NCBI RefSeq assembly: GCF_000336935.1
Contig: NZ_AOME01000056.1
Span: 1-60,422, forward strand
Direction: 5' to 3'
Source: Halococcus salifodinae DSM 8989
Lineage (GTDB): Archaea > Halobacteriota > Halobacteria > Halobacteriales > Halococcaceae
Length of the DNA stretch: 60,422 bases
Numbering within the stretch: the first letter of the stretch is position 1; every line of letters starts with the position of its first letter. Below the pieces are notes generated by a model. It was not told where the DNA came from. It made no database searches and saw only the letters and a list, made by a program, of their open reading frames with translations. Below, one piece after another: positions 18,479-40,770 of this stretch. The translations under genes were made by a program, and so were the position numbers.

Positions 18479-20118
18479 TCCGGGAGAACTGGCGGCTCGT
18501 CCTGCTCGTCGTGTTCGTGATCGCTGCCGGGGTCGCGCTGTTCGCGCCCCCACTCGGCGGTGGCGGGGCGAACGCGACCGCCGCCGCGCCGACCGCCGAG
18601 GGGCCGACCAACCTCCAGTTCGGACTCGAACTCTCCGGCGGGACGCGGATCCGCGCGCCGCTCGTCGGGCTGACCGCCGAGGGCGTCGATGTCGAACGGG
18701 GCAGTCAGGCGAACGTCACTGGGGAGGTCGCGAGCGCGCTGAACGTCTCCGGGGCGGACGTCCAGACCCGGGTCGGCAACGGTTCGGCCACCGTCGAGGT
18801 GTTCCCCGATCGGGTCACGAGCGACGGAGCCGCCGGTGCGCCCGGCAACGTCTCACAAGAGGAGTTCACACGGGCGCTCCAGTCCGCAGGCCTCGACGTT
18901 TCGAGGGGCGACGTCAGCCAGGGTGTGACCGACCAGACCTACGAGACGGCGGTCAACACCCTCGACAACAAGGTCAGCGAGTCAGGACTTGCGGGCGGGT
19001 CGGTACAAACCGTCCAATCGGGGGGCGAGCAGTACATCCAGATCGAGGTACCGAACCAGAACCGCTCGGAGGTTCAGGACCTCGTCGCCGATCAGGGCCG
19101 AGTGACGACGGTGGCGTACTTCCCGGTCGAAGGGAACGAGACACCGGCCTACTGCGAGCCGGGGAGCTGGGAGAACACCACGTCGAACGGCACAGTACCG
19201 GAGGGGTACTGTAGCGTGACGGTGCTCGACAGCCAGGAGGGGTTTCAGAACATCGAACCCGTCACGCGCGATCGGGATGGACAGCCGGTCGTTCCAGTGA
19301 CACTGTCTGACGAGGCTGCCGGACCGTTTGCGACGGACATGCGCCAGTACGGATTCGACAACCCGGCGAACGGGACGTGCCGGTTCGAGGAGAGCCGGAC
19401 CGGTCACTGCCTGCTCACCGTGGTCGACGGACAAGTGGTCTACGCCGCAGGTGTCAATCCGAACCTCGCCCGATCGTTCGCCGGCGACGACTTCGAGAAC
19501 CGGCCGGCGTATCAGACCTCCGCACCGAACATCTCGGAGGCACAAGAACTCCAGGTCGACCTCCAGGCCGGCGCACTGCCTGCCCGACTCGACCTCGATG
19601 CGGGGACGAGTCAGTTCATCCTGCCGGATCTCGCCGAGAAGTTCAAGCGCTTCTCGCTCATCACGGGACTGATCGCGGTGCTCGCGGTGGCGGTCACGGT
19701 GTTCATCCGGTATCGTGACCCGCGGGTGGCGATTCCGATGGTGTTGACCGCGCTCGCGGAGGTGTTCATCCTGCTCGGGTTCGCGTCGGCGGTCGGGCTC
19801 GCGCTCGATCTCTCGTACATCGCCGGGTTCGTCGCGGTGATCGGCACCGGGGTCGACGACCTCGTGATCATCGCCGACGAGATCCTCCAGAGCGACGTCA
19901 AGACCGGCCGGGTGTTCCAGAGCCGGTTCCGCCGGGCGCTGTGGGTCATCGGCGCGGCCGCCGCCACCACCATCGTCGCGATGAGCCCGCTCGCCATCCT
20001 CAGCCTCGGCGATCTCCGTGGGTTCGCCATCATCACCATCGTCGGCGTGCTCATCGGGGTCCTGATCACCCGCCCGGCCTACGGTAACATCCTCCGGAAC
20101 CTCGTGACCGGGGACTGA
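18475..20118 (+). CDS. secD: protein-export membrane protein SecD
   Basis: A 547-residue partner of SecF. It has one N-terminal helix (residues ~7-27), the motif LQFGLELSGGTRIRAPL, a large extracytoplasmic P1 region (about 40-385) and five C-terminal helices from ~390, with TGVDDLVIIADEIL matching the RND core. The start at 18475 overlaps secF by four bases, so the two are coupled. The two exported PGF-CTERM proteins encoded just upstream are plausible clients, though that is only adjacency. Confidence 0.95.
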   Translation: MIRENWRLVLLVVFVIAAGVALFAPPLGGGGANATAAAPTAEGPTNLQFGLELSGGTRIRAPLVGLTAEGVDVERGSQANVTGEVASALNVSGADVQTRVGNGSATVEVFPDRVTSDGAAGAPGNVSQEEFTRALQSAGLDVSRGDVSQGVTDQTYETAVNTLDNKVSESGLAGGSVQTVQSGGEQYIQIEVPNQNRSEVQDLVADQGRVTTVAYFPVEGNETPAYCEPGSWENTTSNGTVPEGYCSVTVLDSQEGFQNIEPVTRDRDGQPVVPVTLSDEAAGPFATDMRQYGFDNPANGTCRFEESRTGHCLLTVVDGQVVYAAGVNPNLARSFAGDDFENRPAYQTSAPNISEAQELQVDLQAGALPARLDLDAGTSQFILPDLAEKFKRFSLITGLIAVLAVAVTVFIRYRDPRVAIPMVLTALAEVFILLGFASAVGLALDLSYIAGFVAVIGTGVDDLVIIADEILQSDVKTGRVFQSRFRRALWVIGAAAATTIVAMSPLAILSLGDLRGFAIITIVGVLIGVLITRPAYGNILRNLVTGD

Positions 20119-20180
20119 CGGCGGGAGATCTGACGATCCGTCTCGATCGAGCCGGCGAAGCGTCATTGGACCATTTGTTG

Positions 20181-20640
20181 TCGGCGCGCGGCTGCACGGC
20201 GCTCCGACGGAGCGCCGTGCAACCCCCGTGCGAGGGATGACTGAGTGAAGCGAGCAACGCGAGCGAACGAGGGAGTCGGCTGGGGAGGTGTGTGGGCGGT
20301 AGGTGTCTGTGATCGAACCGTGAACGAGCAACGCGAGTGAGCGGGTGTTTTTAGCCCACCGGAAGACGCTTCGCGTCTTCCGAGCCTTGCTTCGCTACGC
20401 TCAGCAAGACAGGTTTTTGCGACGAGTGGTGGACGAGCGGTGCGAGGTGCGAACGGAGTGAGCGTGGTTCGAAAGACGCTTCGCGTCTTTCGTCATCACG
20501 AGAGAGCTTCGCTCTCTCGGACGACCTCGATAGCGAACGGGGAGCGAATGCGACCCGTGAGCGACCGCAGGGAGCGAGCGCACCCGAGGAGTGAAAAAGT
20601 GGGTGCGGGAGGCGTGTGGGCTGTGCGGGGCGGTGCGAAC
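20181..20640. repeat. composite intergenic repeat, copy A
   Basis: The ~570-base gap between secD and the DUF2298 gene has no credible gene. It holds ordered blocks: TCGGCGCGCGGCTGC (20181), CGAGGGATGA (20231), GGGGAGGTGTGTGG (~20282), GAGCGGGTGTTTTTAG (~20339), AGGTTTTTGCGA (~20410), and GTGCGGGAGGCGTGTGGG (~20600). The same blocks recur in the same order at 23.3-23.6 kb. Perfect hairpins sit between blocks: 20194-20220 (12-bp stem, 3-base loop), 20361-20381, 20471-20491 and 20499-20519 (each 8-bp stem with CTTCG loop). Confidence 0.75.
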
Positions 20641-20689
20641 GGTTCGGTCGAAAAGGGATCAGGTTCGTGTTCGACACCGCTACCGTGCT

Positions 20690-23167
20690 TCACTCGGGGC
20701 CACAGTCCGTATCGCCGGATTCACAGACAAGGTCGGGATCGACCGCATAGATCGTCACTGCCCGATTCTCGAACGCGACCGAGACGTTCGGCTGGCGCGC
20801 GTAGTTCTGGACGTCGCCGTAGCGGTCGCGCTCCGGTGGCCCGACGTAGATGTAACGGACATCGTATCTGTCGAGCACCGGCGCGCCCGCCGACCAGGGT
20901 TCGGTGTAGATCGTGTTCACGGCCGCGACGCGCTCCTCGAACGCCGCCGCGCCGCGATAGCCGCGCTCGTGTCGCCACCCGATCACGGTCGGGACGCCGG
21001 TGAGGGTCGCGGGCGCGCTCGTCCACGTGTACATCTGGGTTCCCGGCTCGGTAACGATGTTCGGCTGGCCGGAGCGGTTGTCGAGCCACGCGATCGATTC
21101 GGCCTGGGCCGGCCAGGATTGTTCGACGAACCGCGTTCCGTCGAGGGTCGGATCGAGACCGGCAGACTCGGCGGGCGGGTCGTCGAAGTGTGCCGATAGC
21201 GCGAGGCCGGCGAACGTGCCGGTGGCCGGCACCACGAGCGCCGTGACGGCGAGGACGGCGAGCCCGGCAGCGAGCGCAGTGCGGGGGACCGATCGACCGG
21301 CGAGTGCGCGACCGAACGCGTCGCGGGCGGCCGCGAGCAGCCACGCGAGTGCGACGCCGGCGGCGGTGCCCCAGAGCACCCAGACCTGGAGGTACACCTT
21401 GAAGACGGTCTTCCAGCGCACGTTCTGGGTGATCGAGCCCGCGCTCACGTACGCGAACTCCACCGCGAGCACGAGCCCCGCGCCCGCGACGATCAACACC
21501 GTCTCGTAGCCGATGGGCGATCCAGCATCGAACAGCGTTGCCGCCGCGTCGGACGAACGGCGACGCTCCGGAGGGCGATTTCCGTCCACCGGTTCCTCCG
21601 TCGGCTCCCGTGAGGTGTCGGCACGTGTGCGACACAGCACCCAGCCGACGACGACGAACGGGCCGGCGAGCGCGACCGCCGCGAGGTCGACGGCCAATCC
21701 GAGCACGGCGAGCACCGCGACGCTTGCGACGCCCACGACGGCGAGCGCTCTCGGCGGCGCGCGCGCGAGTCGAGCTCGCAGCCATCGCGGCCGGCGCGCG
21801 ACGAGGTAGAGCGCGAAGAGCGTGAGGAAGGCTCCATGGACGAGAAACAGCTCGCCGAGGCCGCTGCGCGGTGGGAGGAACCTGACCCCGCGGACTTCCG
21901 GGCTGTGAAAGAGGAGGAACGGCGACGCGAGTACCGCACCCGCGAGGCCGCCGGCGCACGCGACCCCGGTCGCGACGAGCGTTCGCGAGAGTTCGTGTCG
22001 GAGCCGGGCGAGACTGGCCGTGGCGTCCGGCGGGGCGGGGAGATGCCGGGCGATCGCGTCGGGCAGCAGCGTCGCCGGTCGAGCGTCACCAAGGGCGAGC
22101 GAGAGCCAGAGCACGCCGACCGCGCTCGGCACGCTCCACGTGCTGATCAGCGCACACAGGCCCACCGCCGGCGGGAACGCGACGAAGACGAGCGCGCGCC
22201 GGCGGGTGAGAACGGTCTCGGGAGTTCGGTAGTACGCAAAGGAGAGTGCGACGCAGCCGAGCAGGAACGTCATCGCGATCATGAACGCGCTCAGGTCGCC
22301 GTTGAGGAACGACCAGAGCGGGAAGACGTTGAGCGTCCCGTCGATCACGTACCGGCCGTACCAGTACGAGAAGTTTTTCGGGACAGTGAGGTTCGCGAGC
22401 GCCTCCTCGTAGGGGACGCCGCGGACGCCCGCGAACAGGACACGGCCGTACTGTGCGGCGAGATCGTCGGGGAGCAAACCGAGGAGCATTCTTCCGGGCG
22501 TCGCGAGATTACCCCCCACTCCGACGAAGAGGGCCGCGAGCGCGCCCGCGAGGCGGTGCGAGTGACCGTGAGAGTCCGCGATCGCACCCGCGAGACCGTA
22601 GGCGGCGGTCACGAGCGAGGCAAAGAATCCCGCGAGCGCGAGGTTGTACGCGTAGCGCGCGGGCGTGTCGGTGAGCATCGAGAGCAGCGCGGTCATCACG
22701 AACCCACCGTAGTAGTACCGGAGACGCTCGCCCGCGAACCAGAAGTCCTCCGGCGGTAGTCGATCCGCGCGCAGCACCGTCTGAATCAGCCCGAAATCGA
22801 GAAACTTCTCGCCGCCACCGGGATGCACCGCCGGATCGATCGCCCGGATCGCGAGCATGAACCCAAAGGCGAGCCCGAACACCGCCATCGCGGCAGCGAG
22901 ACCTCGAAGGTGGATCGACCCGCCGGCGCGGATCGCGAGACCCGACGCGACGAGGAGGACCACGACAGCGATCCCGACCGCGACCGGCCCGAACGTGACG
23001 TGGCCGACCCAGTAGGCGACCAGCGTGAGGACCGTGAGCGAGATCGGGAGCGCGAACGTCGCGCCGCGGTCGGGGAAGCGCTCGAACAGCAGGGACGCGA
23101 TCGGGAGTCCGACGAGCGCGAGGAGGGCGTAGGCCACGAACCACAGGGCGACGAGACCGTACTCCAT
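20690..23167 (-). CDS. DUF2298 (Chlor_Arch_YYY) membrane protein
   Basis: An 825-residue polytopic membrane protein of the archaeal/Chloroflexi DUF2298 family, distantly like membrane glycosyltransferases. Features include WFAGERLRYYYGGFVMTALL near residue 155, a conserved lumenal segment with NFSYWYGRYVIDGTLNVFP, a variable linker around 530-560, and an extracytoplasmic C-terminal domain ending in DPDLVCESGDTDCG. At least 15 hydrophobic segments are visible. The ATG at 23167 (MEYGLVALWFVAYAL) is preferred over the upstream GTG. A lipid-linked sugar substrate is likely by family analogy but unproven. It is bracketed by the composite repeats. Confidence 0.85.
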   Translation of the reverse strand: MEYGLVALWFVAYALLALVGLPIASLLFERFPDRGATFALPISLTVLTLVAYWVGHVTFGPVAVGIAVVVLLVASGLAIRAGGSIHLRGLAAAMAVFGLAFGFMLAIRAIDPAVHPGGGEKFLDFGLIQTVLRADRLPPEDFWFAGERLRYYYGGFVMTALLSMLTDTPARYAYNLALAGFFASLVTAAYGLAGAIADSHGHSHRLAGALAALFVGVGGNLATPGRMLLGLLPDDLAAQYGRVLFAGVRGVPYEEALANLTVPKNFSYWYGRYVIDGTLNVFPLWSFLNGDLSAFMIAMTFLLGCVALSFAYYRTPETVLTRRRALVFVAFPPAVGLCALISTWSVPSAVGVLWLSLALGDARPATLLPDAIARHLPAPPDATASLARLRHELSRTLVATGVACAGGLAGAVLASPFLLFHSPEVRGVRFLPPRSGLGELFLVHGAFLTLFALYLVARRPRWLRARLARAPPRALAVVGVASVAVLAVLGLAVDLAAVALAGPFVVVGWVLCRTRADTSREPTEEPVDGNRPPERRRSSDAAATLFDAGSPIGYETVLIVAGAGLVLAVEFAYVSAGSITQNVRWKTVFKVYLQVWVLWGTAAGVALAWLLAAARDAFGRALAGRSVPRTALAAGLAVLAVTALVVPATGTFAGLALSAHFDDPPAESAGLDPTLDGTRFVEQSWPAQAESIAWLDNRSGQPNIVTEPGTQMYTWTSAPATLTGVPTVIGWRHERGYRGAAAFEERVAAVNTIYTEPWSAGAPVLDRYDVRYIYVGPPERDRYGDVQNYARQPNVSVAFENRAVTIYAVDPDLVCESGDTDCGPE

Positions 23168-23277
23168 TCGACCGACCAACCGGCGCGGGACGCCAAAGGG
23201 ATTCCGTTCGTAGCGTCGCTATCGGTCCGCGAACAACCGCCGGACAGCCGGTGCGTGGTGGGATGCAGTCACCGCGG

Positions 23278-23620
23278 TCGGCGCGCGGCTGCGCGCGAGG
23301 GATGAGCGACGCGAGAGGTGAGCGGCGCGAGAGGTGAGCGGCGCGAGCGAAGCGAGGGCCGCCAAGCGAACGGGGTGCAAAGCGACCCGTGAGCGAAACG
23401 AGCGGAGCGAATCGGTTGGGGAGGCGTGTGGACGGTTGTAGTGCTGTGCGGTGGGACCAGTAGTCGGGCCACGAGTGACCGAAGGGAGCGAGCGGGTGTT
23501 TTTAGTCCAGGTTTTTGCGAGGAGTGGTTGGCGAACGAAGTGAGCCAACCCGACGAAGTAAAAAAGTGGATGCGGGAGGCGTGTGGGCGTTGCGGTGCTG
23601 TGCGGACAATCATTTGTGTC
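23278..23620. repeat. composite intergenic repeat, copy B
   Basis: The ~500-base gap between the DUF2298 start and rnhB has no credible gene. It carries the same ordered blocks as copy A in the same orientation: TCGGCGCGCGGCTGC (23278), CGAGGGATGA (~23296), GGGGAGGCGTGTGG (~23417), GAGCGGGTGTTTTTAG (~23489), AGGTTTTTGCGA (~23509) and ATGCGGGAGGCGTGTGGG (~23568). A GGTTGGC...GCCAACC inverted repeat lies near 23523-23551. An internal short duplication GCGAGAGGTGAGCGGC occurs near 23310-23345. Confidence 0.75.
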
Positions 23621-25029: not shown

Positions 25030-25150
25030 TTAACCTTAACACGGGCGCTAATTCCTCTTCCTCATGAGCACCGCAGTCCGCCGTTCGGTGGACAAGGAGC
25101 GGAAGAGGGGGGGGATACAGCGTCATCAGAACGCTTCGCGTTCTGATTAA
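25030..25150 (+). pseudogene. possible gene stub cut off at the IS605 left end
   Basis: A TATA-like TTAACCTTAA near 25031-25040 is followed ~25 bases later by ATG at 25064, reading MSTAVRRSVDKERKRGG before running into the element's left-end hairpin and stopping at 25148. Promoter and start look real, but the rest of the coding sequence is absent, suggesting truncation by the insertion. A chance frame is possible. Confidence 0.3.
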
Positions 25151-25175
25151 CAGTCAGAAATCTTTGATTTCTGAC
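25126..25175 (+). repeat. tandem left-end hairpins of the IS605 element
   Basis: TCAGAACG + CTTCG + CGTTCTGA is a perfect 8-bp stem; six bases later GTCAGAAATC + TTT + GATTTCTGAC is a perfect 10-bp stem. Both share TCAGAA/TTCTGA arms. Subterminal hairpins are the binding sites of IS200/IS605 TnpA. Confidence 0.75.
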
Positions 25176-25262
25176 GACGCCCGTCATCATCTGTTCTTTC
25201 GTTCTATTCGTGTTCTGTCGGAATGTTAATGTGGTGGGGTGACGTACATATGAACGAACCCA

Positions 25263-25661
25263 ATGGCTTCCGACCTCGATTCAGGTTCACACTCGGTCTA
25301 TTCGCTCCATTATCACCTGATACTCGTCACGAAGTATCAGCATGGAGTGCTCACCGAGGAACGAACCAACTTCATTCACGAGGTCATCGACGGGTTCGCG
25401 GAGAAATACGACGTCGAGGTCTCGCACCTCGACGGCGAAGACGACCACATACACATCCTGTTCAAAACGAAACCCACCACAAACCTCGTGAAGTTCGTCA
25501 ATACACTAAAAGGCGCAACTGCGCGGAGGGTTCGCAATGAGTTCCCCGAACTCAAGGACGAACAGGTAGATTCGTTCTGGAACGACTCATACTGTCTCAT
25601 CTCGACGGGACAGGTCTCACTCGACGTGCTCACCGAGTACGTCGAGAACCAACGCCGGTGA
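25263..25661 (+). CDS. tnpA: IS200-type HUH transposase TnpA
   Basis: A 132-residue Y1 transposase that cuts and rejoins single-stranded DNA at the element ends. The HUH metal motif is DDHIHILF (His-Ile-His) near residue 63, and the nucleophile Tyr is in LTEYVENQ near residue 126. The length matches the family, and all key residues are present, so it appears active. Its stop overlaps the GTG start of tnpB by four bases. Confidence 0.93.
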   Translation: MASDLDSGSHSVYSLHYHLILVTKYQHGVLTEERTNFIHEVIDGFAEKYDVEVSHLDGEDDHIHILFKTKPTTNLVKFVNTLKGATARRVRNEFPELKDEQVDSFWNDSYCLISTGQVSLDVLTEYVENQRR

Positions 25662-26884
25662 ACTGCACCTATCGGTTCCGGCTCAATCCCACGCCCGAGC
25701 AACGAGAGCGGTTGGCGTGGACGCTGGATACCTGCCGACAGGTTCGCAACCACTTCCTGCACCGGATGAATCAGTTGGAAGACTCGTCGTACACACCAGA
25801 ACAGAACCGTCTCCCGAAGCTCAAAGAGTGGTGGATCGACCTGAAGTCGGTCCATTCGAAGGTGCTTCAGATGGTCGTTCGTCGTCTCTACAAAGACCGT
25901 TCGAATCTTTCGAAGAAGGCGAAGAAGGGCTACAACGTCGGCAAACTCAAGTGGAAAGGTGTGGGCGACTACTTTTCGTTCACCTACAACCAGACCGGTT
26001 TCGAACTCAAGAAAACGAGTGGCCGCGACAGGTTGCACCTTTCGAAGATTGGCGACGTTCCCGTAGTAGCTCACAGAGATCTTCCCGACGACGCCACCGT
26101 GACCGGTGTCGTCGTGAAACGCGAAGCCACCGGACGCTGGTACGCTTCGCTCCAACTCGACACCGATACCGAAGCACCTCCGAAGCCGGACGAACCGGAA
26201 CGGTGCGTCGGTATCGACGTGGGGATACTGAAATACACCCACGACACCGACGGCACCGCCGTCGGGTCATTGGACCTCTCCGACGAACAGGAGCGACTGA
26301 AACACGAACAGCGTGTTCTCTCCCGCAAAGAGCATGGGTCGAACAACTACCGCGAACAGCAACGGAAGGTCGCCCGTCGTCACGCCGACATCAAGCGAAA
26401 GCGCCGCGACTTCCTCCACAAACTCTCGACGTGGTACGCCGAAAGCTACGACCTCGTGGCGGTCGAAAAGTTGGATACAAAGGGGTTGCTGGAACTACCG
26501 TCGAACTCACACAGCCGTGCGAGTGCGGCATGGGCCACGTTCCGAAAACTCATGAAATGGAAGTGCAAACGCGAAGGAACGCACTTCGCGGAAGTGCGTC
26601 CCGAAGGCACTACCAAAGAGTGTGCTCGGTGTGGTGTCGAGACCGACAAGCCACTCTGGATACGCGAACATTCCTGTCCCGCCTGCGGGTTCGAAGCGGA
26701 TAGGGACGAAAACGCCGCATGGAACGTCCTTCAACGCGGTCTCGACAAACTAGGCATGGGCTGTGCCGAATCAACGCCCCCGGAGACTGCGGTACCTACG
26801 GATACCTCCTTTCAGCAGGTGTCTGCAAACCGCGTCGTGGAACGGGGAAGCCCCACCCTCAACGAGCGCGTCAGCGCGAAGTAG
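25658..26884 (+). CDS. tnpB: TnpB RNA-guided nuclease
   Basis: A 408-residue RuvC-type nuclease, relative of Cas12, guided by an RNA from the element's right end. An N-terminal OrfB helix-turn-helix begins NCTYRFRLNPTPEQRERLAW. RuvC residues are the Asp in CVGIDVGILKY, the Glu in LVAVEKLDTKG and the Asp in EADRDENAAWN. A four-Cys zinc finger lies between (CARCGVE and CPACGFE). The GTG start overlaps tnpA. All catalytic residues are intact. In IS605 biology it favours retention of the element by cutting the vacated donor site. Confidence 0.93.
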   Translation: MNCTYRFRLNPTPEQRERLAWTLDTCRQVRNHFLHRMNQLEDSSYTPEQNRLPKLKEWWIDLKSVHSKVLQMVVRRLYKDRSNLSKKAKKGYNVGKLKWKGVGDYFSFTYNQTGFELKKTSGRDRLHLSKIGDVPVVAHRDLPDDATVTGVVVKREATGRWYASLQLDTDTEAPPKPDEPERCVGIDVGILKYTHDTDGTAVGSLDLSDEQERLKHEQRVLSRKEHGSNNYREQQRKVARRHADIKRKRRDFLHKLSTWYAESYDLVAVEKLDTKGLLELPSNSHSRASAAWATFRKLMKWKCKREGTHFAEVRPEGTTKECARCGVETDKPLWIREHSCPACGFEADRDENAAWNVLQRGLDKLGMGCAESTPPETAVPTDTSFQQVSANRVVERGSPTLNERVSAK

Positions 26885-40504: not shown

Positions 40505-40770
40505 GAGCCGAGCGAGACGCTGCGCGTCTCGCTGGCCGTGCGAGCGGGCCTCCGGCCCGCGAGCAGACGCCGAAGGCGTGCGACTCGCGCGAGGTCTGCG
40601 CGAGCGGTGCGAGGTGCGACCGTAGGGAGCACCTCGATGCGAACGGCGAACGAACGTGAGCCGTGAGCGAAGCGAGTGCAGGCTCGTCAGAGCGGCGCTC
40701 TGACGGTGGATGAGCGGAGTGAGCGAAGCGAACGAGCGAGGGAGTCGGCTGGGGAGGGTGTGGCCTGCGG
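40505..40770. repeat. hairpin-rich intergenic repeat region, partial copy
   Basis: The ~465-base gap between thyX and the SRPBCC gene has no credible gene. It contains the block GAGGGAGTCGGCTGGGGAGG (~40738-40757), identical to copy A at 20.27 kb. Perfect hairpins lie at 40511-40533 (9-bp stem, CTGCG loop), 40544-40560 (6-bp, CTCCG loop) and 40685-40705 (9-bp, GGC loop). Other blocks of the composite repeat are missing. Confidence 0.65.

Follow-up and report, generated by a model that had tools for sequence, protein, structure and literature searches.

Two composite repeats flank a DUF2298 gene

The window analyzed here is a whole stretch of 60,422 nucleotides from Halococcus salifodinae DSM 8989 (contig NZ_AOME01000056.1, forward strand). 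It contains a gene for a DUF2298 membrane protein (PF10060) on the − strand at 20,690–23,179, which lies between two composite repeats and is not part of the elements. A preliminary description of the window reported ordered blocks in the same direction at 20.18–20.64 and 23.28–23.62 kb and a third, partial copy near 40.74 kb. Both observations held. Fuzzy block matching resolved composite 1 as A–b–c–d–e–(h)–f at 20,178–20,619 and composite 2 as A–b–(h)–c–d–e–f at 23,275–23,586, both on the + strand. Block h (GCGAACGGGG.GC.AA) is a seventh block common to both composites, and its position in the order differs. Pairwise comparison of the two intergenic gaps gave matching pieces with E values of 5e-15, 2e-7, 9e-6, and 3e-5. 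The third copy is a partial element at 40,674–40,763 (+ strand), matched by covariance model R2 with 38.9 bits (E 8e-7).

Composites 1 and 2 had 58 and 47 matches in the window genome, respectively, self-matches included. The d-block string (at most two mismatches) was found 41 times versus once for the reversed control; a few of the 41 are duplicates across an assembly join (L096/L097 and L106/L107). The order A–b–c–d–e–f or parts of it also occurred at three further loci (L023, L061, and L068). Constraint on the blocks and their order, as proposed earlier, extended genome-wide, and the suggested genome-wide profile worked. The genome-wide block matching excluded the opposite outcome, in which the blocks would be scattered low-complexity matches lacking any order at other loci. 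The spacers, previously regarded as free of constraint, proved otherwise: most are covarying hairpin stems, in which the sequence changes and the pairing is kept.

Alignment of five long copies separated two modules, A–b–c (module 1, model R2) and d–e–f (module 2, model R1). In the long composites, module 2 is embedded in the module 1 tail, and this tail appears a second time (c') after it. The ordered composites of the Halococcus window result from this nesting of module 2 in the structured A–b–c element. Rather than a cassette specific to the DUF2298 gene, they represent two element families that occur across the haloarchaea.

In composite 1, the module 1 copy (A, variable hairpin, b, c) occupies 20,176–20,295 on the + strand (R2, 71.8 bits, E 5e-14). 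It sits between SecD (+ strand, ending at 20,118) and DUF2298. Block d, GGGTGTTTTTAGCCCA, was located by d-string search and by its sequence at 20,343–20,358 (+) and carries a T5 tract for + strand transcripts. A palindromic module (CCGGAAGAC..GTCTTCC..) is inserted between d and e at 20,359–20,409 (+). The same insertion site was reused in 18 of 156 d-sites, in genomes G000 and G001 only. Blocks e to f (20,410–20,604, +) form a T5–hairpin–A5 unit expanded by extra hairpins and ending in block f, AGTGAAAAAGTGGGT (20,590–20,604, +). Model R1 was weak here, indicating that e–f of composite 1 is a degenerate copy. The second c-like block, c', was found by repeat search at 20,602–20,640 (+).

In composite 2, the module 1 copy (A, b, c; 23,275–23,450, +) is diverged; R2 gave 29.7 bits at 23,333–23,431, and fuzzy blocks define the full extent. 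Block d, GGGTGTTTTTAGTCCA, lies at 23,494–23,509 (+) with its + strand T5 tract, and its GTCCA also pairs with TGGAT as an outer stem. Blocks e–f (23,510–23,569, +; R1, 84.5 bits, E 2e-19) form a T5–hairpin–A6 unit, a candidate bidirectional terminator. Its T5 at 23,512–23,516 pairs with the A-run at 23,560–23,565. The predicted fold was −27.3 kcal/mol on the + strand (z −4.2) and −16.1 kcal/mol on the − strand. The d–e–f module is bordered by two direct repeats on the + strand, one at 23,417–23,450 (c ... GTGCTGTGCGG) and one at 23,572–23,605 (c'). Because c' intervenes, block f does not adjoin the stop codon of the RNase HII gene.

Module 2 is positioned at gene ends

Module 2 has the layout GGGTGTTTTTAGTCCA-GGTTTTTGCGAGGAGTGGT-stem-GAGCGNAGCGAG-stem-ACCCGACGAAGTAAAAAAGTGGG, with the consensus GC hairpin 1-TTTTT-RGYCCA-NN-TTTTT-hairpin 2-AAAAA-GGTGG. 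Hairpin 1, a G.A-step hairpin (n-block), was present upstream of d in 144 of 156 d-sites. Nine Halococcus genomes contained 130 f-blocks, 102 of which faced a reverse-strand gene. With gene boundaries in unannotated loci taken from a simple codon-score caller, the stop codon was −4 to +8 nt from the f-block in 97 of these 102 (mode +1/+2), versus 4.2 expected from random placement in the same gaps. The strand of the reverse gene reads stop codon, 0–4 nt, ACCCACTTTTTTAC, and hairpin. On that strand, the A-run is a T5–6 tract located 4–10 nt past the stop codon or the tRNA 3' end. The opposite strand has the tracts TTTTTA (d) and TTTTTG (e) ahead of hairpin 2. A coding-strand T-rich tract shortly 3' of genes, by which archaeal T-tract terminators are recognized, was therefore present. 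The bacterial-type arrangement, a GC-rich hairpin followed by a U-tract, was seen for hairpin 1 and d; the e and f tracts precede hairpin 2.

Between 16 and 18 of the 41 d-sites of G000 (about 40%) were common to G001 or G005 with the same neighbours. In Halococcus, −− gene pairs outnumbered +− pairs, and many elements thus have no gene end on their + side. Twenty of 155 Halococcus d-sites lay between divergent genes, where there is no 3' end to terminate.

The hairpin covaries and is exchanged in a fixed frame

In one hairpin subclass, 98.5% of cells were paired, and 36 double-change cells were counted versus 10.7 after shuffling (reached in 0 of 500 shuffles). The pairing score of this subclass was 0.193, whereas slid structures gave at most 0.013. 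Across 112 hairpin interiors, the mean MFE z was −4.3, and arms from the same copy folded at −23.4 kcal/mol versus −15.2 kcal/mol for swapped arms. The apical loop was GNA in 81 of the 112 and the complement-type TCC in 6, indicating that the structure of hairpin 2 belongs to one strand. Tandem G.A pairs, like GNA loops, are known to be stable in nucleic acids in the setting of CGAG/CGAG steps.

We compared 22 pairs of sites that share both neighbours. Interiors were less than 70% identical in 14 of the 22 (77% for random pairs) and at least 85% identical in 4 (2% for random pairs). Different hairpins occupied the same place in, for example, G000 L102 and G005 L218, and likewise in G000 L109 versus G005 L202 and G001 L186. 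These comparisons indicated that the T-tracts and their position are kept, that the hairpin sequence is largely replaced, and that the replacement always pairs.

In other genera, the T-run and the A-run were equal in length in 38 of 40 elements (5/5 in 30, 4/4 in 6, and 6/6 in 2). The outer triplets (CCA/TGG, GTA/TAC, and GCA/TGC) were complementary in 35 of 40, compared with a shuffled mean of 25.9 and maximum of 31. The equal run lengths and the co-changing triplets show that conservation extends to T-run/A-run pairing itself, beyond the presence of a T-run on each strand. Judged from these patterns, the module 2 hairpin is under selection.

Module 2 is found throughout haloarchaea

A genus-restricted repeat was suspected at first, as the exact d-string hardly occurs outside Halococcus and a strict T5–hairpin–A5 search found none in 263 kb of other haloarchaea. 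The covariance-model search overturned this. R1 matched 115 of 145 haloarchaeal genomes and 49 of 58 genera, with rough E values from a short calibration. It matched none of about 100 other archaeal genomes of the same phylum, which are probably less GC-rich. Outside Halococcus, the element reads YTTTTTGGTCCAGATTTTTGCGAGGAGTGGT...ACCCGACGAAGTAAAAAGGTGG and is unmistakable by eye.

The best-scoring matches in other genera gave 39 distinct elements, of which 21 lay between convergent genes, 13 between ++ genes, 5 between −− genes, and none between divergent genes; the upstream gene was on the + strand in 34. Among these best-scoring matches, the f-side was −1 to +4 nt from a stop codon or tRNA end in 11 of 26 cases, and the d-side was within 100 nt of the stop codon of the + gene in 19 of 34. 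In G103, G066, and G019, tRNA-Arg genes run directly into CCAYCTTTTT.

Several other identities were considered. A phage or plasmid origin was rejected: there was no match in 50,697 phage records, and plasmid matches were limited to a few haloarchaeal plasmids. Open frames cross the reverse strand of the composites, yet e–f lengths differ by single bases, so that the reading frame is not kept and a coding repeat was rejected. A box C/D or K-turn reading of GGATGACTGA was also rejected, as its CTGA varies to CCGA or GCGA. Apart from tRNAs, Rfam searches gave no match at or near the gathering score, only one sub-threshold chance match, and a known RNA was rejected. No description of the element was found in Rfam or in the open-licence full texts searched, and within that literature the candidate two-way stop signal seems previously undescribed.

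Module 1 is a separate structured element

Module 1 has the layout GGTGGCGCGCGGGAG-hairpin-CGACTCGYGCGAGGGATGA-G.A-step hairpin-GAATCGGYTGGGGAGG-N-GTGTGG. It is a structured multi-hairpin element of about 105 nt with an invariant G-rich tail, GGYTGGGGAGG-N-GTGG. Its covariation was evident from 28 double-change cells versus 8.5 after shuffling (0 of 500). R2 matched 72 of 145 haloarchaeal genomes and 33 of 58 genera; several genomes had at least 25 copies each, with scoring limited to 27 per genome. By these matches, module 1 is a class-wide structured element that hosts module 2. We rejected it as a terminator, because it lacks a T-tract and, in Halococcus, is not biased towards any gene orientation. 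It is absent from Rfam, and its invariant strings did not occur in the open-licence full texts searched. That the G-rich tail forms a two-layer quadruplex is speculation.

Module 2 as a candidate bidirectional terminator

Archaeal termination is usually described as needing little beyond a run of Ts. From its order, copy number, position, covariation, in-frame hairpin exchange, and taxonomic range, we consider it likely that the d–e–f core is a class-wide haloarchaeal bidirectional terminator, based on T-tracts around a conserved hairpin. A T5C tract was sufficient to terminate 95% of transcripts in vivo in Haloferax volcanii (PMC7237163). Given that result, a T5–6 tract a few bases past a stop codon or tRNA is very likely a terminator. 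Module 2 resembles the H. volcanii T-stretch terminators in having a T5-like coding-strand tract just past genes and in needing no bacterial-type hairpin upstream of the reverse-strand tract. It differs from those T stretches in that a single covarying hairpin carries T-tracts for both strands at fixed positions at its base, in a sequence frame kept across the class. In the passages of PMC7237163 consulted, a T stretch, an AGATC motif, and hairpins preceding some sites are described, and no such bidirectional element. As in bacterial Rho-independent terminators, hairpin 1 is followed by a T5 tract on the + strand, and convergent genes are served. Bacterial bidirectional terminators, however, are arranged as A-tract–stem–T-tract, whereas module 2 is T-tract–stem–A-tract, and the T-tract of each strand precedes the hairpin.

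In the proposed mechanism, module 2 would supply one T-tract terminator to each strand, and RNA polymerase arriving from either side would release at the first T-tract. The forward strand carries a T5 tract twice, with hairpin 1 ahead of the first. Hairpin 2 comes after the e and f tracts, whereas a bacterial intrinsic terminator has its tract 3' of the hairpin, so simple T-tract termination leaves the conservation of hairpin 2 unexplained. Hairpin 2, whose G.A mismatch steps and GNA loop make it stable mainly on the + strand, may act on read-through molecules. It could serve as a back-stop for read-through, as a 3'-end or processing structure, or as a binding site for a protein, on either RNA or single-stranded DNA. 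We infer these roles, and the ending of transcription at the T-tracts, from sequence patterns.

The strongest alternative, which we nevertheless regard as unlikely, is a 3'-UTR RNA structure acting after transcription, in 3'-end stabilization, in ribosome stalling close to stop codons, or as a processing site; the T-tracts would then be U-rich cleavage signals and not release sites. Such a role is consistent with the covariation and strand bias of the hairpin and with its tight spacing from stop codons. It also fits the presence of the stable form on the + strand and the direction of the + neighbours in other genera, most of which read into the element (upstream genes on + in 34 of 39). However, the same element follows tRNA genes, which have no ribosomes, it is two-sided, and the RNA hairpin of the reverse gene is much weaker (−16.1 versus −27.3 kcal/mol).

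A still less probable reading is mobile palindromic DNA, REP/BIME- or MITE-like, that was spread by a Y1 (HUH) transposase and accumulated harmlessly after gene ends. Module 2 shares with the REP/BIME sequences of enterobacteria and pseudomonads (RepRanger, PMC12306157; PMC3733652) high-copy intergenic palindromes, many near 3' ends, and mosaic nesting. The strand-specific hairpins with their GNA loops (81 of 112, versus 6 TCC), and the additional palindromes that 18 of 156 copies, all from two species, carry nested at a single fixed position, would suit such an origin. So would the IS200/IS605 TnpA/TnpB pair at 25,263–26,884 in the window, where the Y1 gene is paired with TnpB, i.e., of IS605 type. 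A possible CA duplication of 2 nt borders the inserted CCGGAAGAC module; no target-site duplication was seen around the core element. Unlike REP/BIME, module 2 has no GTAG/CGTC tag in its consensus alignment, keeps a fixed T/A-run frame, is conserved across the class rather than within strain groups, and exchanges its hairpin in place. Also against mobility are the distance to stop codons and tRNA ends, which is fixed within a few nucleotides and tracks the T-tract, the roughly 40% of sites common to species with the same neighbours, the covarying lengths of T-run and A-run, and the lack of phage matches. An explanation by GC-rich matches of low complexity, or by neutral drift of intergenic sequence without any common function, is suggested by the GC-rich genome and the GAGCGNAGCGAG-like strings in many blocks. 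It is already refuted by reversed controls with 0–1 matches, by failing shuffles and slid pairings, and by zero matches in about 100 other archaeal genomes.

If the terminator reading is correct, haloarchaea also use a structured terminator, class-wide, covarying, and two-way, near stop codons and tRNA ends. We are somewhat inclined to a broader proposal, that the class has two undescribed dispersed structured families: a T5–hairpin–A5 bidirectional terminator, whose hairpin is swapped as a cassette in a fixed frame and is probably recognized by a dedicated factor, and the R2 element of about 105 nt with its invariant G-rich tail. Module 2 predicts 3' ends at hundreds of sites, for which existing RNA-seq offers a check, and it is a compact part for haloarchaeal genetics. 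The fixed-frame hairpin exchanges are a natural series for separating the role of the T-tracts from that of the hairpin.

Remodelling of the DUF2298 locus

The preliminary description made the bracketing of the membrane-protein gene its central point. This was not supported, as copies lie beside unrelated genes and tRNAs across the class. A DUF2298 ortholog at the SecD/RNase HII place was found in G000, G005, and G001 only, with element copies on both sides. In G002 and G006, SecD and RNase HII are convergent with a single module 1 between them, and DUF2298 is absent. The bracketing of DUF2298 is incidental, since two related species without it here keep one element.

Direct repeats had also been proposed to allow the gene to be lost or duplicated by recombination. 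Gain or loss of the gene fits the species comparison. The orthologous place in G001 has a single copy of the repeat of about 33 bp, and the d–e–f module is missing exactly between the direct repeats, so repeat recombination seems to remodel these loci. The presence or absence of d–e–f with one tail of about 33 bp, at 23,417–23,450 and 23,572–23,605, is a natural direct-repeat gain or loss. Recombination between repeats could likewise have brought in or removed DUF2298. In a quick, unrooted, and unfinished tree, the DUF2298 protein of the window fell outside two other Halococcus DUF2298 lineages, which leans towards a gain of the gene.

The DUF2298 gene and the neighboring IS200/IS605-type pair

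The DUF2298 gene (window positions 20690-23179) was found at the same site in only 3 of the 10 Halococcus genomes. A quick tree, unrooted and unfinished, placed it apart from the two other Halococcus DUF2298 lineages.

About 1.6 kb separates composite 2, the second set of ordered repeat blocks flanking this gene, from an IS200/IS605-type pair on the + strand (25263-26884). The pair encodes a Y1 transposase TnpA (PF01797) and a TnpB, the latter an OrfB_IS605 protein with a Cas12f1-like TNB domain. Immediately 5' of these genes lies a hairpin array, GCGTCATCAGAACGC..GCGTTCTGAT..AGTCAGAAATC..GATTTCTGACGACGCC (~25118-25190). This array is a putative dispersed palindromic module in its own right. 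The same array recurred at the unrelated loci L105, L118, and L313, nested within candidate terminator hairpins.

Element copies and tRNA-end inserts in the genomes

Matches to R1, the covariance model of the d-e-f hairpin, were clustered at G075:C2:819100-819929, with a spacing of ~154 nt, and at G064:C2:12085-14125 (L378). Both clusters are predicted tandem copies of the hairpin element. Elements matching R2, the A-b-c model, formed facing inverted pairs less than ~200 nt apart at L419 (G157) and L432 (G156).

In the window's own genome, contigs C15 and C54 contained single-N joins at L096/L097 and L106/L107, flanked by duplicated repeat sequence of 85-90 bp. These joins are probably assembly artefacts at repeats, so the element copy count for this genome would be slightly too high.

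Short gene-free inserts (~115-190 bp) were observed at tRNA-Ser/Lys/Pro 3' ends at L361 (G108), L362 (G083), L363 (G107), and L375 (G036). They came with a direct duplicate of the tRNA's final ~22-27 nt, and the original candidate terminator now lay 3' of the duplicated tRNA end. The inserts, from several haloarchaeal genera, look like miniature tRNA-targeting insertions; some carried an inverted T-arm copy inside.
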